Positions 20,543 to 31,351 of a stretch of 64,000 nucleotides of DNA are shown here, in pieces (position 1 is the first letter of the stretch; every line of letters begins with the position of its first letter). This DNA comes from an uncultured Brevundimonas sp. (GTDB lineage: Bacteria; Pseudomonadota; Alphaproteobacteria; Caulobacterales; Caulobacteraceae). Position numbers and translations under genes: made by a program. The notes below the pieces were generated by a model, which searched no databases, was not told where the DNA came from, and was given only the letters and a program-made list of their open reading frames with translations. The stretch lies in NCBI RefSeq assembly GCF_947305955.1, contig NZ_CAMZFB010000002.1:1-64000 (forward strand), given 5' to 3'.

Positions 20543-20617
20543 GCGGGTATAGTTCAGAGGTAGAACGTCAGCTTCCCAAGCTGAATGTCAGGGGTTCGAT
20601 TCCCCTTACCCGCTCCA
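20543..20617 (+). tRNA. tRNA-Gly (anticodon CCC)
   Basis: Complete cloverleaf: acceptor GCGGGTA (20543-20549) pairs with TACCCGC (20607-20613), the discriminator is T and CCA is encoded. The D arm is GTTCAGAGGTAGAAC, the anticodon arm is TCAGC-TTCCCAA-GCTGA giving anticodon CCC, and the T arm is AGGGG-TTCGATT-CCCCT. It reads GGG codons. Its 3' half is the left attachment site of the island, and the gene remains intact after insertion. Confidence 0.95.
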
Positions 20618-20618
20618 A
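20572..20618 (+). repeat. left attachment site (attL), inside tRNA-Gly
   Basis: The 47 bp from the anticodon loop to the base after CCA are identical to 31225-31271. This copy lies in the intact tRNA. Confidence 0.95.
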
Positions 20619-20672
20619 TATTTTCAATGAGTTAGAGAATTTTTTAGCGAGCGATAAGCTCGTAAATCTCGC

Positions 20673-20691
20673 CGTTGTCCCGTCGTTGTCC
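20673..20691 (+). repeat. putative integrase arm-binding repeat, left copy
   Basis: CGTTGTCCCG-TC-GTTGTCC; the right copy at 31074-31092 differs only in the two central bases and has the same orientation. Each contains two GTTGTCC units 11 bp apart, one helical turn. The position just inside each att site suggests arm-type integrase sites. Confidence 0.55.
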
Positions 20692-20721
20692 TCGATTACC
20701 AATCCGAAAATAATTTGAACG

Positions 20722-20736
20722 GATACCCGTCAATTT
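20722..20736. repeat. 15-bp inverted repeat, left-end copy
   Basis: GATACCCGTCAATTT here is the exact reverse complement of 28756-28770, upstream of the AlpA-like gene. It may bind the AlpA protein or another island regulator. Confidence 0.5.
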
Positions 20737-20818
20737 CGTCTTCGCGCTAGGGCCTCGCATAGTCTCTAGAAGTGGGACGCTACGGAATTTAAGAGGAACT
20801 GCCGAAATGTCAGGTCAG

Positions 20819-22318
20819 TTAGCGGCCATAGGCGGCTAACAGCGCTTGGATTAAAGTTTGCATCTTCGGCCACAGCCGCACTGCGGGCTCATACGCAGAG
20901 ATTAATGCAAGAATAAGAGCAACAACGGTTATTCGCCCTACCAAAGACTGTAGGCGCAGGTTCTGCTCGGCGACTATTAAATTACCCTGATGCTGAGATA
21001 GGGCGCGGATATCGCGATCAAACAGGGCGAGCCGCTTTGCCAGTTTTCCGGCCGCAATCCAAAACCAAGCAAGCAGATCATCTCTCGCTTCTTTACCAGC
21101 CCAGTTCCCCCCTCGATAGATGTAGCTATCTCGATGAAACCTCGACCTTGTAGCTGTCTGAAGTTCTCCGCAAATAGACTGGAGGTCCGCATTTTTAATG
21201 TTCATTGCCTGCATGCGCTTGATTGCGCGCTGTGCGCCAATACGGCCAAGTCCCAGCTGATTGTCGCGCACGAGACTTAGCTTTTCTTGCATGGCCGAAA
21301 GTAGGGCCTGAAGCCCCCACGACAACACGATTTCTTCTAACTCGTCCTTTAAGGAATAAGCGATATCGGTCTTTGCCGTGCCGTACGACCGCAGACTTGC
21401 CTCCGAAATGTCCGCAGAATTTAGGAACAGGAAAGCATGCTTCGAACGTTCTAAGGTGCTTCGAGAAGGAAAGACCAGGACACCTCCAGCCTCGGCTTCA
21501 CGTCGCCAACACTTGATTCCGCGCTCAAGACCAGCCAGCCCCCATATCGTGTCCCTAGGATGGCTACGCGGTCCCATCTCGTACAGGTTTAACTCGAGAC
21601 AAGGACGAATCTCAGCCTTCTCCGCAGAAAAGAAGCCTGGCAAATGGCGCTTGCCCCACTGATGTATCTCAAGCCTTAAACCCCTTCGAAAGCGATCAAT
21701 TGCTGCGGCCTTCACGCGCTCTGGATCGTTCACCGAGTACGCACGGCCGTAAGAGATAAATTCTGGGAAGCGGTATCGAGCCAATTCCTCTCTGACTTGA
21801 TTTCTTACCTCCGGTTTCAGATAAAACGTTAGGCAGCACGCCGATAGCGACGGCGTAATAGCGTGCACCTGAACGCTGATGTGCTCGAAGGAATGCGGTA
21901 CAGGTCCTGGAGCACCGCGTGAGTAAATGCGCTTACTCGCCTTCGGATAGATATAGCCTAGATGATACCAGCTACCTCGTTGATCCTGTGATCGCGCTTC
22001 GCTTATCCAGAGTAACGGATCTGTATGTCGAAAAGTGTCATTCCCTAGCCGGAGCAGACGAAGAGCCCGATGCAGGTGATTAACCGTAGAGGGCGTGAAG
22101 TATTCAACGGTGGATATACACAGAGTCGAAATTTCATCGCCCTCTAGGGGGGTGCACTCAGCATTTTTATGCAGGACGTCCTGCTCGTGGTGGTAGCGAA
22201 GTGCTTCACGTTGGTTGGGATGCGGGGCAAAACCTAGGATGTGAGCGCGAAGCCTGGCGCTGCGCGCGTACCTGCGCCATTTCTGATTCCATCGTGAACG
22301 TGGTGAATCTGCTGACAT
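20819..22318 (-). CDS. island protein of unknown family with a C-terminal membrane segment
   Basis: A 499-aa protein I do not recognise. The N-terminal half is mixed alpha/beta, basic, with clusters of Arg/Trp/Tyr (WNQKWRRYARSARLRAH). Residues about 320-450 look helical (LKDELEEIVLSWGLQALLSA) and could form a coiled stalk, and a single membrane segment lies near the C-terminus (VGRITVVALILALISAYEPA), leaving a short tail. It lies 143 bp downstream of the TIR/SLOG genes in the same orientation, so it may be the membrane-acting effector of that cassette or an independent gene with its own promoter in the AT-rich gap. Confidence 0.7.
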   Translation of the reverse strand: MSADSPRSRWNQKWRRYARSARLRAHILGFAPHPNQREALRYHHEQDVLHKNAECTPLEGDEISTLCISTVEYFTPSTVNHLHRALRLLRLGNDTFRHTDPLLWISEARSQDQRGSWYHLGYIYPKASKRIYSRGAPGPVPHSFEHISVQVHAITPSLSACCLTFYLKPEVRNQVREELARYRFPEFISYGRAYSVNDPERVKAAAIDRFRRGLRLEIHQWGKRHLPGFFSAEKAEIRPCLELNLYEMGPRSHPRDTIWGLAGLERGIKCWRREAEAGGVLVFPSRSTLERSKHAFLFLNSADISEASLRSYGTAKTDIAYSLKDELEEIVLSWGLQALLSAMQEKLSLVRDNQLGLGRIGAQRAIKRMQAMNIKNADLQSICGELQTATRSRFHRDSYIYRGGNWAGKEARDDLLAWFWIAAGKLAKRLALFDRDIRALSQHQGNLIVAEQNLRLQSLVGRITVVALILALISAYEPAVRLWPKMQTLIQALLAAYGR

Positions 22319-22461
22319 GGCGAAGATATTAATGAATTTTTTGGATTGGAACTTTGTCGGCTACTGGGGGCAATAGGATTAGGGCTATAACTCCAGTGTT
22401 AGATGCGCGGACGTAGCTAGACTGGCAACTATGCCGGCAAGTTAATCGGATAGCGTCGGCC

Positions 22462-23043
22462 TCAAGATGGACTTCGATCTTGGATCTGCACGTTCTTGCG
22501 GAGCCAAAGATCGAGGTTAGCGTAGACGGAATACGATCGGTTGACCCAAAATCTGGGCTTGGTTGCTCCTCTGGCCGGAACGTGATCGAGATAAGGGTAT
22601 AAGCCGAGATACTCGTTACCTTTGAACTCTAGCTCATCGCTAGCTGCTATTGGTAGTATCGCAATCTTGCCCTTCATGCCGTCAAAAAAGCCCAGCTCCC
22701 AAGGCATCCATGTTGATGTGCTCGAGTGCAGGCTGTGAGCGTAGACAAGCATTCCACACTGAGCCATCCGTTCCCGTAGCACTGCAGCTGTCTCTTGGGT
22801 GACCTTAGTACGATCTAACTGCGGATCTTGGATCCAATCAACGTATACGGTGAAGCCATCATCTTCGAGAAGTTCTTTGGCCCCTAGGATAAGTTCTTCA
22901 TCCGCCTTGGAATGGCTAAGAAAAATGTCGAAGGCCTGATCTTCAATGGCGGCGTGTTCCATCAAAATGCGGCCCGCCGATTTTTTCATAGCCTTCTCTA
23001 CAAGCGACGCGCGCTGGCGCAGACGCTCTTCTGTGATCAGCAA
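22462..23043 (-). CDS. TIR domain protein (third of cassette)
   Basis: A 193-aa protein with a short helical N-terminus (about 35 residues) and a TIR domain. The first strand and loop are FDIFLSHSKADEE, strand B is FTVYVDW, and the conserved Trp and candidate catalytic Glu are in TWMPWELGFFDG (Glu116), matching the W-x(3)-E motif of NAD-cleaving TIR domains. The start is a TTG at 23043 with a good ribosome-binding site (AAGGGGAG); no ATG is available upstream. It lies 42 bp after the SLOG gene and is in its operon. NADase activity is inferred from the motif only. Confidence 0.87.
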   Translation of the reverse strand: MLITEERLRQRASLVEKAMKKSAGRILMEHAAIEDQAFDIFLSHSKADEELILGAKELLEDDGFTVYVDWIQDPQLDRTKVTQETAAVLRERMAQCGMLVYAHSLHSSTSTWMPWELGFFDGMKGKIAILPIAASDELEFKGNEYLGLYPYLDHVPARGATKPRFWVNRSYSVYANLDLWLRKNVQIQDRSPS

Positions 23044-23085
23044 GACGCGCTCCCCTTATTTTTCGAACTACTCTTCCCTGCAGAA

Positions 23086-23748
23086 CTACGCGGGGCGGCG
23101 TGGATCTGGCTTCCATAGACGGTCTGCTATGTCAGCAGGCTGTTCGTCCGGACGGATATAACGCCTTTCCTGTTCTTGGATGCCGAGGCGCCGATGAAAC
23201 AAGCTAACGTAGTCGAGATTATCAAAGAGATCTGGATCGGAGGTGCCCAATCTTTTCGCCACCTCAAGGGTCGCACCGCCGGTCGATGCGATGGGCAAAA
23301 TAGTCGCTTGAGGCTGTAATTTTTGGAACAGCTCATATTCATCGACGATCCCCTTCATACCACCGATGAATATCGCAGCCGAAAATTGGTTCTGCTGGAA
23401 CATAGCTTTCCGCATAGCCAATAGGCTGTCGTCACGGCTATCGTTGACACTATCGATGAAGGTCACGTTCTGGAAACGAATATTGTCTTCAGGATATTCG
23501 TCTTGGAAGAAGCGGGACTGGTACAACTTTACCCAGCGGCCGTAGTCTAGTCCCATGTCTTCAGCGACAACCCAGACCATCGGGGTGATCCCAGGTTGCC
23601 CCCCCCAAACGAGCGGGCGGCGGCCTAAGGTCACGAAAAGTAAGGCCGAAACCGCAGCTTGAATCGCGACGGTGTTCGCCGTTTTTGCATCTTCTGGGCT
23701 GCGTCTCGGATCGGGCACCCCAGCTGATAGAAAGATCGCATCCGACAT
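23086..23748 (-). CDS. stand-alone SLOG domain protein
   Basis: A 220-aa Rossmann-like protein of the SLOG superfamily (SMF/DprA-LOG fold), which binds nucleotide or NAD-derived ligands. Visible are the first strand FLSAGVPDPRR, the glycine turn VWGGQPGITP (Gly49-Gly50), and the second motif AAIFIGGMKGIVDEYELF with a conserved Gly-Gly and Glu, followed by the strand TILPIASTGGAT. No other domain is fused. In Thoeris ThsA a SLOG domain senses a cyclic ADP-ribose isomer; by analogy this may be the sensor of the cassette. Its ATG follows the preceding TIR stop without a gap, with ribosome-binding site GGAGAG. Confidence 0.82.
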   Translation of the reverse strand: MSDAIFLSAGVPDPRRSPEDAKTANTVAIQAAVSALLFVTLGRRPLVWGGQPGITPMVWVVAEDMGLDYGRWVKLYQSRFFQDEYPEDNIRFQNVTFIDSVNDSRDDSLLAMRKAMFQQNQFSAAIFIGGMKGIVDEYELFQKLQPQATILPIASTGGATLEVAKRLGTSDPDLFDNLDYVSLFHRRLGIQEQERRYIRPDEQPADIADRLWKPDPRRPA

Positions 23749-24981
23749 CTAGCTCTCCAAGCCCACGATCGTCCACCCAAACTCTGCAGCCCGAATGGCA
23801 CGGACGGAGGTGATATTTTCGTCGAGCCAAGTTAGGTGCGATGCCCAAGCAGCACCAATTCCTACATGATCGTAAACAAGAATGGGCGTGCCAGCTTGTT
23901 CAGCGTTCTTAGCCTTTATGGCGATGTCATTGAGTAGTTCAGCTGTCGGCACACCCACAACAGGATAAGCCCAAATCTTCGCTCCGTCATTCAGGCGTAT
24001 AGCAAGTGCGCGGTGTGCGCCGACGCCCTCGAACGTTGCGCCGATCTTGGTGACCTCAGCCCGTACCTTACCCGTCATCGACATGTATCTGGAAGCGATG
24101 CTGCGGCTCCGTAGGGCTTCGACGGCCAGAACGATCTGATCAACTGTGGCATCGATGATTGGTCCGTCTGCAGCCTCCAATTCATGCGGCTCAAGATAAA
24201 TGGTCTCAGCGAGATCAGTCATCTTGTTTGGCGTGTAGTCTGGCCAGACCACCCTGAGAACGTGAATTTCCTTTGCTCGGGCGCGACCAATCTCCTGCCT
24301 AGTCCATTTCCGCTCAAAATAGTTTGGCGTATCCAGCATCACCATGACGTCGGAATCACACAACCGATGCCACAGTACTTCCTGAAATGGATCTGCGGGC
24401 ATTATGTCATGCGTGTCTAGGAACACATCATATCCACGGCTGCTTAGCTCGTCGTGCAGTTGGACGGCGGCGGCTCGCGACTCAACACGCCGATAGCTTA
24501 CGAAGACTCGTCGCTGGCGGCGAAGCAGGCCCGCGCATTCAAGGAGGGCTGTCGCCAGTTCAGTGAACTTGAGATCGTCGGCTCGACGACGGTGCCCGTT
24601 AAAGCCCTGTAGGAAGCTTGGAATGACCGAGTTAAAGTCCTCGCCAGCCTTAATGGTGGGAATGACTGGCACGCTCGCCTCGACTAGCGCGCGCGCAGCG
24701 TCGAGATCTTTATTAGAGTCGCCGCCGAAATAGGCGGCCGCAGAGCTTGCATGTTTGTCACGCTGTGCAATGTCCTCGCCTGTGCGGACTGCAACAGACG
24801 TTCCCACGTCCAACTCGAAATCTACGAGCAGCGACGCGATGGTGTTCGTCAGTTGGTCCCTATCAGCATGGGAGACATCGCCGAGGATCGCGAGTTCATA
24901 TACTGCCACGGTTTCAGGCCTGGTTTCGGATACGGATGGCTTCCTCGATCCAAGACTCAATGTTGGCCGAGATCGACGCAT
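23749..24981 (-). CDS. three-part TIR protein (second of cassette)
   Basis: A 410-aa protein. Residues about 25-150 form an alpha/beta domain (YELAILGDVSHADRDQL, then AAYFGGDSNKDLDAARALV and VPVIPTI) resembling the nucleotide-binding-like domain seen before some bacterial TIRs. The TIR domain spans about 157-280: RRVFVSYRRVESRA, YDVFLDT, then KWTRQEIGRA with candidate catalytic Glu230. Residues 290-410 (from MSMTGKVRAEVTKIG) are an unrecognised C-terminal domain with two GXG-rich turns. From ATG 24981 (AAGG upstream) it overlaps the ThsB-like gene by 68 bp; a GTG at 24909, 4 nt after that stop, is the alternative. Confidence 0.85.
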   Translation of the reverse strand: MRRSRPTLSLGSRKPSVSETRPETVAVYELAILGDVSHADRDQLTNTIASLLVDFELDVGTSVAVRTGEDIAQRDKHASSAAAYFGGDSNKDLDAARALVEASVPVIPTIKAGEDFNSVIPSFLQGFNGHRRRADDLKFTELATALLECAGLLRRQRRVFVSYRRVESRAAAVQLHDELSSRGYDVFLDTHDIMPADPFQEVLWHRLCDSDVMVMLDTPNYFERKWTRQEIGRARAKEIHVLRVVWPDYTPNKMTDLAETIYLEPHELEAADGPIIDATVDQIVLAVEALRSRSIASRYMSMTGKVRAEVTKIGATFEGVGAHRALAIRLNDGAKIWAYPVVGVPTAELLNDIAIKAKNAEQAGTPILVYDHVGIGAAWASHLTWLDENITSVRAIRAAEFGWTIVGLES

Positions 24982-25411
24982 AGACAGCCTTACTGTCTGA
25001 GCCCGCCGGTATCTTGAGCTGTGCCACGTCGGCTAGTGTGCCTGATTTGTTAGTGAAGCTGACCTTGGAGAGGGGGTTTGCCCCTGCGGCCGATGGCTGA
25101 CCATTCACGTCGAGAAGTTTGTTAATGCTAATTGCCACCACGCCCTTACCATCGTTCCATGCCTTCGAGATCTCATGGATGACCCACGGACGGGACGCTG
25201 TTTGTGAGCCGACTAGACATACTAGACACGATTTGCCGTTCATATTTTCAGCAATCCACCGCTCGATAGCTGCGTCGCCCTTTTTTTTGACTTCTTCCCA
25301 AGCGTTTGGCGTGCAAACGGCTTGCCCCTCTAGGGCACCAATGTTGCGGACCTGCTGGGTGCGCCAGTAGTCGTTATCAAAGTGAAAGCTGAAAAATACG
25401 CGCCGCGGCAT
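24914..25411 (-). CDS. ThsB-like TIR protein (first of cassette)
   Basis: A 165-aa single-domain protein of the TIR-like DUF1863 type found in Thoeris ThsB. It begins MPRRVFFSFHFDNDYWRTQQ then VRNIG, the ThsB opening as I remember it, with NAWEEVKKKGDAAIERWI following, and has the Trp and candidate catalytic Glu in RPWVIHEISKAW (Glu80). ThsB proteins detect phage infection and make an ADP-ribose-derived signal; that role is inferred here. It is the first gene of the cassette, with ribosome-binding site AGGGAG before the ATG, and about 350 bp upstream free for the promoter. Confidence 0.87.
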   Translation of the reverse strand: MPRRVFFSFHFDNDYWRTQQVRNIGALEGQAVCTPNAWEEVKKKGDAAIERWIAENMNGKSCLVCLVGSQTASRPWVIHEISKAWNDGKGVVAISINKLLDVNGQPSAAGANPLSKVSFTNKSGTLADVAQLKIPAGSDSKAVYASISANIESWIEEAIRIRNQA

Positions 25412-25758
25412 GGTGAATGCTCCCTATGTGAACATTTCCTGAGCCAGCACAAATCATGCCAGCAACAACCGCAACGATATTGCTGGTACTATAGCACTAA
25501 ATTATCGCTAAAATTTTGGTCGTCTTTGCCAATGTGGTTCGCCACTATTCAAAGCAACCAACTCTTAAAGCCGACCGCCTTAACGGCCGCTTGGTATCAG
25601 ACTTACGAAGTGAGCGAAGCGGGTGAGCCATCCCAGAAGTGGACAAGTTCAAAGATCGAGTTGCGTCAAAATGAGACGTTAGTTGGCGATTAGCTCGGCA
25701 GGTCAGAGTAGACAGTTCTCAGATGATGCATTGAACAACCCATCGTTCAACGCCGATA
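25412..25758. other. gene-free region upstream of the TIR/SLOG operon
   Basis: No convincing gene. A 103-codon open frame on the plus strand (25382-25693) is low-complexity and lacks any family resemblance. On the minus strand CTATAGT near 25487 could be a -10 element for the cassette, but no good -35 is seen. Confidence 0.5.
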
Positions 25759-26709
25759 CTATCTTCCGCCTCTGTCTCGTTGGCGGGTGTTTCGCTTGAG
25801 GTTTGAGCTTTGTGATCGATCCTGCGCTGTGACTTTAGATGCAAGTCCGAGGGCACGGCTGACAATCTGATTGGGCGTTCGATAAGCCGTCTTTGAAGCT
25901 TGCTTTAAGGCCTTCATCTCCCGTCTCAAATGATCCCGTGCTTGATCAATGAATCTCGAAAGCCTGCGCATCTGCAAGATCAGCTGATTGGATCGCCCTC
26001 TATCCGTGACGGGTGAACTTGACGGAGCATTACGACGATCCCTCGACGCCCTCCGTTCAATGGCTGTTGAGATTGGTCCGAGCTTGATTGTGGGTTCGGC
26101 CTCGATGCCTTGGCGCGAAAAGCTCCTGTGATCGACCGTTTGGGGGATGTGGGCGCGCTCTAAGGCGCGGTTGACCATATCGGCCCAGGTTTTTCTCAGG
26201 TGCTCGACCTCTACGGATGCGGTGGAGGACACGTCCAGTTGGCGGGTCTTGGTGCTGAACCCATCCGAGCTAAGCGCGCGGGTGGTGGTGAGGAGGTGGG
26301 CGTGGTGGTTGCGTTGGTCGCCTTCGGTATTGGGCGGGTGGATGGCAACGTCGACGGCTACACCGTAGCGGGTGACCAGGTGGTCGGCGAAGGAGAGGGT
26401 AAGGCTGCGCCGTTCAGCCGGGCTAATCTCGGCGGGGAGGGCGATTTCGTATTCCCGCGCGACCTTGGCGTCCTTACGTCGTTCGGTAGCTTCGACCTGG
26501 TTCCACAGAATGGAGCGGTCGAGAGCCCAAGCGGGGGCATCCCTTGGCGCTAGGATCAGAGCCTCGATAACCGGCTTGCCGGTGAAGTCATGGGTTAGGC
26601 CGTCGCGATGGTTGGTGAGCTTCTCGCCAGCCCTGTAGGCCGCAGCGGCAACCGCGCTGCGGCCCATCGAGCGAGAGATCGACTTCACCGACAGATGAAA
26701 GATCGACAT
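25759..26709 (-). CDS. MobA/MobL (MobQ-type) relaxase
   Basis: Nicks oriT and pilots DNA in conjugative mobilisation. The 316-aa protein opens with the MobQ signature IFHLSVKSISRSMGRSAVAA followed by AAYRAGE, and has the histidine triad in GDQRNHHAHLLTTTR, the metal site. The N-terminal relaxase domain covers about 1-200; the C-terminal part is basic and helical. No helicase or primase domain is present, so it is short compared with RSF1010 MobA. It is downstream of a MobC-like gene (8 bp apart) and an oriT matching its family. Confidence 0.92.
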   Translation of the reverse strand: MSIFHLSVKSISRSMGRSAVAAAAYRAGEKLTNHRDGLTHDFTGKPVIEALILAPRDAPAWALDRSILWNQVEATERRKDAKVAREYEIALPAEISPAERRSLTLSFADHLVTRYGVAVDVAIHPPNTEGDQRNHHAHLLTTTRALSSDGFSTKTRQLDVSSTASVEVEHLRKTWADMVNRALERAHIPQTVDHRSFSRQGIEAEPTIKLGPISTAIERRASRDRRNAPSSSPVTDRGRSNQLILQMRRLSRFIDQARDHLRREMKALKQASKTAYRTPNQIVSRALGLASKVTAQDRSQSSNLKRNTRQRDRGGR

Positions 26710-26717
26710 GGCCCGTC

Positions 26718-26993
26718 TCAGTCTCCGGCAAGTTCGCGATCAAGAGACCAGCCCTCGAAAGGCTTACGGTCGATATCCCGCGAGATGCGATCCATAAGAC
26801 TGTTGAGGACAGAGACGTAACGCGTGTCATTGCGCGCCGCCTCCAACAGCAAACCACCTAGGATGATTTTGCGCCGTGTATCCGCCTTTCGCTCGCCCGC
26901 CTTGGCTCTGGCGGCCATGGCGTCGAAACGGGCCTGTGCTTGGGAAAGCTTCTGGCGCGCGAGAGCCAAGCGTTCCGGGGATGGCCTAGTCAT
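26718..26993 (-). CDS. MobC-like mobilisation accessory protein
   Basis: A 91-aa basic, helical protein (ERLALARQKLSQAQARFDAM then AARAKAGERKADTRRKIIL). Small proteins of this form sit just before MobQ relaxases and help to open oriT; RSF1010 MobC and conjugal transfer TraD-like proteins are comparable. The ATG at 26993 has AGGAG upstream; the open frame extends 30 codons further through the oriT region, which is unlikely to be coding. It is 8 bp upstream of the relaxase and about 50 bp from oriT. Confidence 0.75.
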   Translation of the reverse strand: MTRPSPERLALARQKLSQAQARFDAMAARAKAGERKADTRRKIILGGLLLEAARNDTRYVSVLNSLMDRISRDIDRKPFEGWSLDRELAGD

Positions 26994-27043
26994 TGCGCCA
27001 TCTCCTGCGTGGGGGGCACCACACCCGCCGGTCGGAAAGGACC

Positions 27044-27074
27044 AAGGGCGCACTTTAGCATTGGTACCCAATGC
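27044..27074 (-). other. predicted oriT, RSF1010/IncQ type
   Basis: On the minus strand a perfect inverted repeat GCATTGG-GTA-CCAATGC (27074-27058) is followed by TAAAGTGCGCCCTT (27057-27044). RSF1010 oriT has an inverted repeat followed by TAAGTGCG/CCCT, cut at the slash; the same cut here would fall between 27049 and 27048. Next to MobC- and MobA-like genes this is a strong match. Confidence 0.8.
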
Positions 27075-27189
27075 GTGCGGCAAGGGCTTCGCCCCTGCAC
27101 CCGTTCGCTTCGCGATGGGGCGACTTGCCCCAAGCCCCCGCCAGCGTTTCGACGCTGGACCCCATGTGAGACATTACCGGGATTGCGGA

Positions 27190-27951
27190 TCATTTGGGGA
27201 CCCTCCATCCCTGAAGTGAGCCGCCCGCAGATACCGCTCCCGCGAAACAGACGTGCTGCCCACTCATCCGCATACGTCGCCATTGTTTTCCCGAACACTC
27301 GCGCATTGCCGTCAGGCTACCGTCCTGATCGAGCTGCCTCGCAAATCTAGCGTTGGGGGTGTTTGCCCAGGAGGCCGCGGCAACTTCATCGCGGGCCTCA
27401 GCATAGCCTCGATCGGCACCGGCCTTTTGCCCAGCTATGAACCCGCTTCCTCCAGCTATCAACGATGCGCACGACATAGCTATCACCGCTGCGATTGCTC
27501 CGCGTATCCAGAGCGAGCGATCCTTTGCGGTGCTTGCTCGATCACGCAGAAGAGCTTGTTTCAGGCTTTCGACAGAGTTTGTTGCTTGCTCGAAGTGCGA
27601 TGCGACGGAGGACAATTGATGAGCGGCTCCAGTTTGAGCCCCTCGCATGGCTGCTTGCTCAACGCTCGACGGATCCACGGTCATTCGAGAAAGAGCGGCT
27701 AGCCGTTCTGCTTCACGCTTTTCCTTTGCGCTCAAGCTTGCTTTGAGCTGCTGTAGGAAGAGTTTTAGTTCAACATGCCCGCCGATGATCTGGCTTAGAG
27801 ACAGCGCTAGCTGCTGGGCCTCGGCTTCCTGCTTGGTGGCTGCTTCGTCAGCATAGAAGTCAAACTCTTCTCCGATATCGATCAGCTCGTTCTTGGGCTC
27901 ATTTGAGATTGAACGAAGATCTCTACCTCTGCCGTAATCACGATCACGCAT
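27190..27951 (-). CDS. island membrane protein, possibly DUF6118-like
   Basis: A 253-aa protein with an acidic N-terminal part (LIDIGEEFDFYADEAATKQE), a long helical region (about 45-135), one membrane helix (WIRGAIAAVIAMSCASLIAG near residue 150) and a C-terminal domain with two cysteines (MRECSGKQW, GQHVCFAG). I believe it is the family called DUF6118, found beside relaxases in alphaproteobacterial mobile elements, but cannot confirm it. Start ATG 27951 overlaps the upstream gene by 8 bp. It may link the relaxosome to a host transfer apparatus; that is conjecture. Confidence 0.7.
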   Translation of the reverse strand: MRDRDYGRGRDLRSISNEPKNELIDIGEEFDFYADEAATKQEAEAQQLALSLSQIIGGHVELKLFLQQLKASLSAKEKREAERLAALSRMTVDPSSVEQAAMRGAQTGAAHQLSSVASHFEQATNSVESLKQALLRDRASTAKDRSLWIRGAIAAVIAMSCASLIAGGSGFIAGQKAGADRGYAEARDEVAAASWANTPNARFARQLDQDGSLTAMRECSGKQWRRMRMSGQHVCFAGAVSAGGSLQGWRVPK

Positions 27952-28504
27952 AGCGGCTTCCCTTCGTGCTGGAAGATTTTGCACGCAGGGTTCTGACCAG
28001 CTCTACAGCTCCTTCTCGTACAAAGGCGCGCACTTCTGCGGATTGGGAAGCGGGAACCTTATCTGGGGGTAAGGGGGAATTATTATTTTCAAGGGTTTGT
28101 AGGAAAATCGGTTCCTTGGTTGGATACCTGTTATTTCCTGCGGGCCTGCCTAAATCAGCAAGTTGACTGGAGCGTCGGTTTCGGAGGCGGCGATACCCAT
28201 TCGGAAAGCCAATTTTGTATCGATTGGTAATACCGCGTTTGGTTCGGCGGACCTGGAGATAGCCTTTGCTCTCTAACGTCCGCAGTGCGGTGCCGACAGT
28301 CCTGGCCGTCAGTTCAGGCCTCTTCGCAAGAGTGTCGTGAGAAGGCCATGCTTCTCCCAAATCGCGGTTGAAGTGCTTGAGCAAAAGCATGGCTATACGA
28401 CAGCATTGAGCCGATAGTTTTGGATCGCTGGCCACGGCCTCGATCCATTCGAATTTCTGAGCGGCTATGGCTTTAGAGGAACGTGCGGACTGCCTCATTA
28501 TCAA
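27944..28504 (-). CDS. helix-turn-helix protein, possibly replication-related
   Basis: A 186-aa protein with a winged helix-turn-helix at about residues 30-100: SAQCCRIAMLLLKHFNRDLG, then AWPSHDTLAKRPELTARTV and LRTLESKGYLQVRR. This resembles the helix_turn_helix domain (HTH_36) of plasmid replication initiators and similar proteins of mobile elements. The C-terminal part is polar, disordered and basic. The start overlaps the AlpA gene stop by 4 bp and its stop overlaps the next gene, so the four genes from AlpA to the membrane protein form one transcript. Confidence 0.78.
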   Translation of the reverse strand: MIMRQSARSSKAIAAQKFEWIEAVASDPKLSAQCCRIAMLLLKHFNRDLGEAWPSHDTLAKRPELTARTVGTALRTLESKGYLQVRRTKRGITNRYKIGFPNGYRRLRNRRSSQLADLGRPAGNNRYPTKEPIFLQTLENNNSPLPPDKVPASQSAEVRAFVREGAVELVRTLRAKSSSTKGSRYA

Positions 28505-28713
28505 GCCTCCATGCTCATCTGCGCAGACGCTTTATAGGTTCGCCTAGGCCTTTCGTTTATCCATGTATCGACCTCGTCCGAGCGCCAGCGAATGCTACGT
28601 GGGCCGAGGATTAATGGGGAAGGGAAGGTCGATGCTTTGACTGCGCGCCAGAGCGTTGAGCGGCACCCAATGCCCGTAATTTCTAGCACCTGCTTTGATG
28701 TGAGAAGGTTCAT
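28501..28713 (-). CDS. AlpA-family regulator / excisionase-like protein
   Basis: A 70-aa single-domain protein: MNLLTSKQVLEITGIGCRST then LWRAVKASTFPSPL and IRWRSDEVDTWI, the AlpA/MerR-like winged helix that in P4-type elements controls integrase expression and excision. It is first in its transcript; the 15-bp element at 28756-28770 lies 43 bp upstream and has an inverted copy near attL, a plausible binding site. Confidence 0.9.
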   Translation of the reverse strand: MNLLTSKQVLEITGIGCRSTLWRAVKASTFPSPLILGPRSIRWRSDEVDTWINERPRRTYKASAQMSMEA

Positions 28714-28755
28714 AATTGGCCTCTGTGTTGCGAAGTGCTGCTACAGAGGGCAGGA

Positions 28756-28770
28756 AAATTGACGGGTATC
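28756..28770 (+). repeat. 15-bp inverted repeat, copy upstream of AlpA
   Basis: AAATTGACGGGTATC, the reverse complement of 20722-20736. It overlaps the probable promoter of the AlpA operon. Confidence 0.5.
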
Positions 28771-28824
28771 AAAGGCTAGTTCCGGACAGCTATGGCCGAA
28801 AAAAGACTTATAAAATACAGTACC

Positions 28825-29748
28825 TTATTTTGATGCGGCTTTGACCGCTGCTTCGAAAAGGAGTTTCCTCTCTTTTCGATTTTCAGTCGGGTTAAGATAC
28901 TTTTGAACTTGATCAAAGCTTAGGCCGCTGACCTGGACTTCTTTGTTCTTAGGTGCGTGCCCTTTCTCGCGAGTGAGATTGTGATAGGCGGCGTGTACCT
29001 CGAAAAAATCTTTCCAAGATTTGTCTTTTATATCGAGGGACTCGGCGAATTTCCTCACCCGCTCAAAAGTCTCGCTATCGACTTTTCGTAGAGATGAAGG
29101 CTCCACAAATGCGTCCCGGAGCACGGTGAATGTGTGAGATTTTAAGTCAATTTCGCTGGATTTTAGGTAGAGTTTTTGAGCTCGCCATAGGAATGAAGGC
29201 CTGTGTATTTCTTTGAGGGCGAGCTTCTCTTGTAGAAGCCACGGGAGTAAAAATGATCTTTTTAGGCCCTTGTGTCCTCTATACAGTTTGAAACTTGATG
29301 GATAAGAATCGTCATATTGATAAATATTTGCATTATTATTATTCAAGTAATTAAAAAAGAATATAAACGAGATAGAATTTATATTATTAATATTTGGCCT
29401 TGTTGAGTATTCTTTAATTGATGCTTGAAAATTAATCTTAGATATTGCTGATCTCAAAGCAAACAAAATAAGAACCGTGACCAATAGTGGAATGGCGTAA
29501 ATGCTGGTTGTGTTGTTAAAATTGGCCATATAGAAAGCGATTGTTGCCAATGAAATTGTTATAAACAAATAAAAAGTATAATTAAAAAACAGAAATAGCT
29601 TATTGTTAATATTCAATTTATTAATTATTCTATTTACATCATCCTTGCTTAGAACATGATCTATGTTTGAGCTATGGCCTCTGGATGCGTATGTGGTCGC
29701 CAAATCTAGGATAGAAATGTATTCGTCATTCTTCATGTTGTTATACAT
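28825..29748 (-). CDS. AT-rich island membrane protein of unknown family
   Basis: A 307-aa protein I do not recognise. Two membrane helices lie close together (about 50-75, FLFFNYTFYLFITISLATIA, and 85-105, SIYAIPLLVTVLILFALRSA), then an Asn/Ile-rich stretch and a polar C-terminal half (from about residue 150) with charged helices. The first half is strikingly AT-rich (Asn, Ile, Lys codons), the second near the element average, as if two sources were joined. It overlaps the integrase end by 8 bp from ATG 29748; ATG 29736 is also possible. It may be cargo or a chimeric relic. Confidence 0.6.
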   Translation of the reverse strand: MYNNMKNDEYISILDLATTYASRGHSSNIDHVLSKDDVNRIINKLNINNKLFLFFNYTFYLFITISLATIAFYMANFNNTTSIYAIPLLVTVLILFALRSAISKINFQASIKEYSTRPNINNINSISFIFFFNYLNNNNANIYQYDDSYPSSFKLYRGHKGLKRSFLLPWLLQEKLALKEIHRPSFLWRAQKLYLKSSEIDLKSHTFTVLRDAFVEPSSLRKVDSETFERVRKFAESLDIKDKSWKDFFEVHAAYHNLTREKGHAPKNKEVQVSGLSFDQVQKYLNPTENRKERKLLFEAAVKAASK

Positions 29749-31057
29749 TTTCAATTAGATTCCCTAGCTCATTTAGAGCTGCGCGCTTCTCTTTCACATA
29801 TCCATATCGATTATATGTGCCGGTCACGCTTGGTGCTGAAGGGCTGTGATTTAATATGCGGGCGACAATCTCTTCCAACGTTCCGATTTTTTCAGAGCAC
29901 ATAAGTGTAGCGCCTGTTCTCCTGAGATCGTGAAGGGTGGCATTTTCGATGCCGGCTTCAGCGGTCACACGAGACATGGCGCGGTTGAGGCTCAGTCGCT
30001 CGATCGGATGGATTTTAGAACCCAATCCAGATTGGGCATCGAGGCGTTTGGCGCGAGGTGAGGGGAAAACGGCGTCCCCTGGTGCCAAAGGGCGACCGTA
30101 GCGCGCTTCTGCGAGTAACTTGGCTTGGGCGATAGCGGTGGCTGCTTGAGGGCTTAATGGAACTAGGTTCTCACGCTTAGCTTTGGTGCGGGCGGCGGGG
30201 ATCACCCACACAAGAGTATCAAGATCAACCTCACCCCAGAGCATACCAGCCACCTCGCTTCCTCGCTGACATGTATAAAGGCAGGTCTGTATTGCTAGTG
30301 CCATGCTGGTTGATACACCAACATGAGCCGAGGTTGGGGCCACCTCTCTGGAGGTGGATATGATGCTCTCCAGAGCTGTCCAAAGCTGTGAAAGTTCACT
30401 GGATGACAGGACTCGATCTCGGCTTGTTTCCTTGAAGGCGAATTTTATTGCGGCCAAAGGGTTGTGCTCAATGAGCTCCTCCTCCACTGCAAAATTGTAC
30501 ATCCGCTTCAGAACCGTCAGGCAGCGGTTGGAAGTGACGGGCCCCGCATCAGAGCCGATTTCTTGAAGCACGGGACGCACGAGCTTGGAGTTCATTTCCA
30601 ATGTGCGAAAATGACCGATGCGTGGGTTGATGTGTTTTCGGATCAGCCAGCCCCAATAAGTGAGTGTTGAGGGGCGGACGCCTTTTCGTTCTGAGGCTGC
30701 CAGAAGAGCTACGCCCAGATCGTGGACCGTCTTGATCTCTAATGCCCGCGCTTCAGCTTGGTGAATCTGTTTAGCTTGGGCTGGATCCTTTCCCTTGGCG
30801 ACCTGACTGAGGATGTCGAGGGTTTGAGCGCGAGCATCGGTTAGGGTCAGGACTGGCCATCGGCCTAAGGTCATCCGGCGACGTGTTCCATCGACCAGGG
30901 TGTACCGGACCGAAAAGGTCTTGATGCCTGTCTTGGTGACATAGAGTTCCAAGCCTCTCATCCCGGTGTCGGGAATGGTCTGCATCCGGTCGATGGGCTT
31001 CAAGCTCTCGATGAATTTTTGCGTTAGGTTCGGCACGGGAGTCTCCACGTCGGACAC
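29741..31057 (-). CDS. int: tyrosine-type site-specific integrase (P4/IntDOT-like layout)
   Basis: Catalyses integration and excision at the tRNA-Gly att site. The 438-aa protein has an N-terminal DUF4102-like arm-binding domain (to about 100: GMRGLELYVTKTGIKTFSVR), a core-binding SAM-like domain (VHDLGVALLAASERKG), and the catalytic domain with the first Arg in TCQRGSEVAGMLW, the box-II HDLRRTGATLM and the nucleophile Tyr in VTGTYNRYGY. The start is a GTG at 31057. It lies 167 bp from the right att site, facing inward. Confidence 0.95.
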   Translation of the reverse strand: MSDVETPVPNLTQKFIESLKPIDRMQTIPDTGMRGLELYVTKTGIKTFSVRYTLVDGTRRRMTLGRWPVLTLTDARAQTLDILSQVAKGKDPAQAKQIHQAEARALEIKTVHDLGVALLAASERKGVRPSTLTYWGWLIRKHINPRIGHFRTLEMNSKLVRPVLQEIGSDAGPVTSNRCLTVLKRMYNFAVEEELIEHNPLAAIKFAFKETSRDRVLSSSELSQLWTALESIISTSREVAPTSAHVGVSTSMALAIQTCLYTCQRGSEVAGMLWGEVDLDTLVWVIPAARTKAKRENLVPLSPQAATAIAQAKLLAEARYGRPLAPGDAVFPSPRAKRLDAQSGLGSKIHPIERLSLNRAMSRVTAEAGIENATLHDLRRTGATLMCSEKIGTLEEIVARILNHSPSAPSVTGTYNRYGYVKEKRAALNELGNLIENV

Positions 31058-31073
31058 CCCTCAGATATGCGTG

Positions 31074-31092
31074 CGTTGTCCCGCTGTTGTCC
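31074..31092 (+). repeat. putative integrase arm-binding repeat, right copy
   Basis: CGTTGTCCCG-CT-GTTGTCC, matching the left copy at 20673-20691 except for the two central bases. It lies between the integrase start and attR and may also regulate the integrase. Confidence 0.55.
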
Positions 31093-31224
31093 CGAATGGA
31101 CGAAACTCACTGCAACCGAGGGCAATGCCACCCGACAACAAAAGTCTTTATTTGGCAATGGGTTGTTTCAAGACTGAGGCGATCCGCAACCTCTCGAAAC
31201 GCCCTGAAACCTTACTTTTTTGAA

Positions 31225-31271
31225 CTTCCCAAGCTGAATGTCAGGGGTTCGATTCCCCTTACCCGCTCCAA
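31225..31271 (+). repeat. right attachment site (attR)
   Basis: Perfect 47-bp copy of the tRNA-Gly 3' half (from CTTCCCAAG through the CCA and one more base). It cannot form a tRNA alone and marks the right end of the element. Confidence 0.95.
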
Positions 31272-31351
31272 AATACATCCTGAAACACGATGTTGCCGGC
31301 TTTGACATTGCGATGTCTCGCCTTTGTCATGGTTTTCCGTTAGAGGAAGCC

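Follow-up and report, generated by a model that had tools for sequence, protein, structure and literature searches.

The stretch of DNA analyzed here, hereafter the window, comprises 64,000 nucleotides from an uncultured Brevundimonas sp. (contig NZ_CAMZFB010000002.1, positions 1 to 64,000). It contains an operon of four genes on one strand, in the order small TIR protein, ThcB4, ThcA and second small TIR protein. The operon is located on a 10.65-kb integrative element (window positions 20543-31274) with 50-bp repeats of a tRNA-Gly 3' end at its ends. The features are:

20543..20617, plus strand: tRNA-Gly(ccc), the integration site, predicted by ARAGORN
20572..20621, plus strand: attachment repeat on the tRNA side, 50 bp in length, sharing 98% identity with its counterpart
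22462..23043, minus strand: second small TIR protein of 193 aa, encoded at the end of the operon, PADLOC ThsB model PDLC00422
23086..23748, minus strand: ThcA, SLOG cluster-3 protein, 220 aa, NF058525 and PF18180
23749..24909, minus strand: ThcB4 gene with its probable boundaries, 386 aa from a GTG start, based on the full-length match to NF058526 and on the starts of homologues
24914..25411, minus strand: small ThsB-type TIR protein of 165 aa, encoded at the start of the operon, PF08937 (E 3.3e-23)
25759..26709, minus strand: MobA/MobL relaxase of the element, PF03389 (E 3.1e-64)
29741..31057, minus strand: tyrosine integrase of the element, PF00589 (E 5.8e-15) and Arm-DNA-bind_3
31225..31274, plus strand: attachment repeat on the integrase side

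The element also encodes a TraD-like protein and is probably mobilizable. In a genome of the same genus the site is unoccupied and the downstream gene directly follows the tRNA-Gly gene. A gene at 28825-29754 (minus strand) encodes a 309-aa protein without a family match in a stretch whose GC content, 38%, lies far below that of its surroundings. Some 140 bases past the operon, at 20819-22318 (minus strand), lies a gene for a protein of 499 aa whose C-terminal segment is hydrophobic and which likewise has no family match. This protein was considered as a part of the system and rejected: among 299 related genomes no match was obtained apart from the window's own, and a single weak relative was found on a plasmid.

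The gene for ThcB4 lies within an open frame of 410 codons (23749-24981), which the preliminary description had taken as a 410-residue protein. The frame is indeed open, on the minus strand; the plus strand is interrupted by stops throughout. The length is probably different: ThcB4 homologues begin at the equivalent of residue 25 of the 410-aa version, and translation therefore probably starts at the GTG at position 24909, four nucleotides past the stop of the upstream gene. The product would then have 386 rather than 410 residues, and the first 24 residues of the longer frame are probably untranslated. Residue numbers of ThcB4 given below refer to the GTG start unless stated otherwise; adding 24 converts them to the 410-aa version.

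The affiliation of the protein is readily apparent. NCBIfam equivalog NF058526 (Thoeris_type3_ThcB4) matches with 466.1 bits over model positions 1-375 of 375, the curated cut-off being 220 bits, and a ThsB model of PADLOC-DB 2.0.0 (2023), 396 positions long and of the same three-part form, covers the protein at 250 bits. The earlier view that a three-part TIR protein of this kind falls outside the known Thoeris subunits must thus be given up; judged by its sequence, the product of 23749..24909 is Thoeris type III ThcB4, a family already catalogued. The match over the full length, the three-part form and the adjacent ThcA are shared with other members of the family. Differences amount to ordinary divergence, and this locus has two more TIR genes and is devoid of the SLOG-patatin effector. 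The name type III Thoeris, as used here, rests on NCBIfam. Our literature search on Thoeris type III retrieved a single, passing mention, concerning the inhibitor TadIII, which is borne by a Pseudomonas phage and acts against this type (PMC12390725). A search of a phage collection did not yield a ThcB4 relative.

The downstream neighbor was identified with similar clarity. It reaches 251 bits with NF058525 (Thoeris_type3_ThcA, cut-off 110), and its SLOG cluster 3 domain is matched by PF18180 with an E value of 2.3e-75. The stop codon of thcB4 directly abuts the ATG of thcA (TAG|ATG). ThcA consists of the SLOG domain alone, without a recognized effector domain, and retains the conserved glycine-rich GGMxG...E motif; since SLOG is its sole domain, it needs an effector partner. 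The PADLOC model for ThsA gives a mere 11 bits with ThcA, and none of the operon proteins contains the SIR2 domain by which a type I Thoeris effector is recognized. Both small TIR proteins appear to be of the ThsB type and keep their catalytic motifs: the 165-aa protein matches PADLOC ThsB model PDLC00433 with 227 bits and has the W..xE motif, and the 193-aa protein matches PDLC00422 with 208 bits, PF13676 weakly, and has the motif WMPWELG.

ThcB4 itself can be divided into three domains:

24517..24909, minus strand: N-terminal domain (residues 1-131), predicted by AlphaFold2 to adopt a TIR/receiver-like Rossmannoid fold
24175..24516, minus strand: central TIR domain, residues 132-245, PF13676
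23752..24174, minus strand: C-terminal domain, residues 246-386, PD-(D/E)xK nuclease-like fold, catalytic motif absent

A TIR domain in the middle of the protein had been proposed from the outset and is indeed found there: PF13676 matches residues 159-247 of the 410-aa version above its cut-off (E 2.6e-16). An alignment of 24 homologues revealed that Trp202 and Glu206 of this domain are invariant, the latter, encoded by 24292-24294, being the catalytic glutamate. The active-site motif is thus intact and the domain is, by sequence, of the active type.

The two flanks had been described as unrecognized domains, the first of them as an alpha/beta domain, to be predicted and fold-searched separately. 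Pfam provides no match specific to either flank, in agreement with that description also for the C-terminal one. Both are nevertheless real conserved domains: homologues of 24-67% identity can be aligned with each of them from end to end, and the AlphaFold2 models, each built from a ten-row alignment, are folded with high confidence. The presence of the TIR domain and of both flanks goes far beyond chance. Foldseek alone retrieved nothing below E 0.001 for either flank, so that the fold assignments depend on a second-look structure aligner, and the Z values of 8-10 behind them are modest.

For the N-terminal domain (pLDDT 91.7, pTM 0.87), the alpha/beta fold turned out as anticipated, with TIR/receiver-like Rossmannoid neighbors. 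The best PDB neighbor is the TIR domain of RPS4 (Z 10.2, 116 residues, 2.7 Å), and a second RPS4 TIR structure (Z 9.8) and the TIR domains of SPARTA (Z 9.3) and Cat1 (Z 9.1) are also near; a receiver domain (Z 9.6) is close behind TIR. At residues 62-84, the place of the catalytic glutamate in TIR domains, the 24 homologues have no invariant acidic residue, and a profile comparison of the N-terminal domain with the central TIR domain detected no homology at the sequence level (probability 0.4%). The C-terminal domain (pLDDT 86.9, pTM 0.76) is structurally closest to AF1548 (Z 9.3, 96 residues, 2.7 Å), followed by XisH (Z 9.1 and 8.9), EndoMS (8.6) and NucS (8.3), with lower Z values for Cdn1, Can2, Card1 and restriction enzymes; nearly all of its neighbors are PD-(D/E)xK proteins. 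At the sequence level it showed no homology to Pfam families or to sequences in the PDB, and a library of predicted viral structures gave weak matches to nucleases and RPB5 and nothing stronger. Its beta2-beta3 region (residues 295-322) contains no conserved D, E or K; a lone turn residue occurs in 13 of the 24 homologues. Nuclease activity is therefore unlikely, and an active nuclease was dismissed as a candidate function on account of the motif residues missing from these homologues. Both outer domains look catalytically dead, the first with a TIR-like and the second with a nuclease fold, and ThcB4 is best described as a predicted succession of a TIR/receiver-like fold, an active-type TIR domain and a PD-(D/E)xK-like fold. 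The earlier suggestion that the C-terminal domain is a putative binder of a signal or partner is plausible.

Known proteins offer partial parallels. SPARTA TIR-APAZ and Cat1 TIR-CARF are TIR NADases switched on by other domains or partners, as ThcB4 would be, and the N-terminal fold of ThcB4 lies near their TIR domains; in ThcB4, however, the additional domains have a TIR/receiver-like fold, the second of this kind in the protein, and a PD-(D/E)xK-like fold. With AF1548, XisH, EndoMS, Can2 and Card1 the C-terminal domain has the fold in common, but not the catalytic motif.

When we inspected 29 other ThcB4 loci, located on plasmids, in genomes and on two viral contigs, ThcA was encoded directly downstream on the same strand in every one (29/29). 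In a sample of 398 genomes across the phylum, ThcB4 above its cut-off, ThcA and the C-terminal domain occurred in exactly the same eight, the window's own included. The chance overlap of two sets of eight is near 7e-17, a figure that is nominal because of shared ancestry. The SLOG protein next door, which had been put forward as an interaction partner, hence appears to be the relevant one. Another TIR gene is present within the flanks of 23 of the 29 loci and absent from the remaining six. Four of the genomes with the pair (G398, G412, G427 and G441) have no stand-alone ThsB-type TIR protein detectable by PF08937, whose weak matches there are very large proteins or ThcB4 itself. Given these six loci and four genomes, ThcB4 and ThcA can apparently persist on their own, and, as the six loci lack any other nearby TIR gene, the pair looks like the core unit of type III Thoeris. 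In Rhizobium leguminosarum TA1 and in loci L086 and L088 it is found among unrelated genes.

Loci from beta- and gammaproteobacteria have a SLOG-patatin phospholipase encoded between the small TIR proteins and ThcB4, which suggests that one TIR-made signal is read by two SLOG proteins. Patatin-like phospholipases with an N-terminal SLOG cluster-2 domain were seen in three type III loci (L079:3430-5046, L085:5291-6907 and L065:2522-4138). They are annotated as CBASS cGAMP-activated phospholipases, although the annotated flanks showed no CD-NTase, and may be Thoeris effectors. Other neighbors were noted in passing: in L090, where the ThcB4-ThcA locus is divergent, a NACHT protein with an FGE-sulfatase domain (L090:3046-6294, minus strand) overlaps thcA at its end; genes for a nucleoside triphosphate pyrophosphohydrolase and a uracil-DNA glycosylase lie beside a TIR gene near the pair in L064, L065 and L066, the second of which also has an Nmad2 protein near the pair; and the pairs in L076 and L077, on contigs of the IMG/VR viral class, are possibly prophage-borne.

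In type I Thoeris, the TIR protein produces a cADPR isomer that is bound by the SLOG domain of ThsA, a ligand-activated NADase whose SIR2 domain destroys NAD+ (PMC11204291). The operon described here resembles that system in combining TIR proteins with a SLOG protein, one of the small TIR proteins being of the ThsB_TIR family (PF08937), but SLOG is not fused to SIR2, and its neighbor is a TIR protein enlarged by two further domains. We propose that the small TIR proteins would sense infection and convert NAD+ to a nucleotide signal, which would be bound by ThcA through its SLOG domain. Ligand-bound ThcA would then assemble ThcB4 via its two non-catalytic flanking domains, which would serve as docking and assembly surfaces, and in the assembled protein the central TIR domain would use up NAD+ and thereby bring the infected cell to a halt. 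Whereas ThsA of type I unites SLOG sensor and NAD-consuming effector in one chain, the two functions would here be divided between two proteins. ThcA is cast as the receiver and ThcB4 as the effector because the former has nothing but SLOG and the latter, which has an intact TIR domain, always accompanies it. In our estimation, chances are about even that ThcB4 is a ThcA-switched NADase effector of the type III Thoeris anti-phage system.

The roles may also be distributed the other way round. Where small TIR proteins are missing, the signal would have to come from elsewhere, and ThcB4 might make it itself: as a ThsB-like sensor, it would respond to infection by forming an NAD-derived nucleotide in its TIR domain, and ThcA would be the receiver with the toxic output, perhaps through a LOG-like nucleotide-hydrolyzing site of its own or through host proteins. 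The intact active-site motif of the central TIR domain, the GGMxG...E motif conserved in ThcA and the grouping of ThcB4 with ThsB proteins in PADLOC speak for this arrangement, and loci with ThcB4 and ThcA alone fit it equally well. It is rendered rather unlikely by the lack of a recognized effector domain in ThcA and by the redundancy of signal makers that would result in loci containing small TIR proteins and SLOG-patatin. A third view assigns the C-terminal domain to nucleic acids: by acting on or sensing phage DNA or RNA, it would bind them and license the TIR domain. With few exceptions, its structural neighbors are nucleases that act on DNA or RNA, but the catalytic beta2-beta3 residues are not conserved in the 24 homologues, cleavage is unlikely, and we consider this role improbable. 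That the operon is an unrelated TIR system merely resembling Thoeris would be in line with the absence of a SIR2-SLOG, TM-macro or caspase-like effector. Both type III equivalog cut-offs are exceeded more than twofold, however, and the order of the ThcB4 and ThcA genes is the same as in relatives; the equivalog matches in particular strongly disfavor this interpretation, to which we attach hardly any probability.

Returning to the proposed effector role of ThcB4, a more specific version of it, which we offer tentatively and regard as somewhat doubtful, is a minimal TIR-SLOG defense unit of two genes, in which ThcA, as a separate SLOG sensor, would switch on the TIR enzyme in trans via the dead flanks of ThcB4; small TIR proteins and SLOG-patatin would be dispensable additions using the same signal. 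What is new here are predicted folds for the two hitherto unassigned ends of ThcB4 and evidence that type III Thoeris has a core of ThcB4 and ThcA, which do not occur apart. With a core of two genes, the question of which protein senses, which signals and which kills becomes directly testable.
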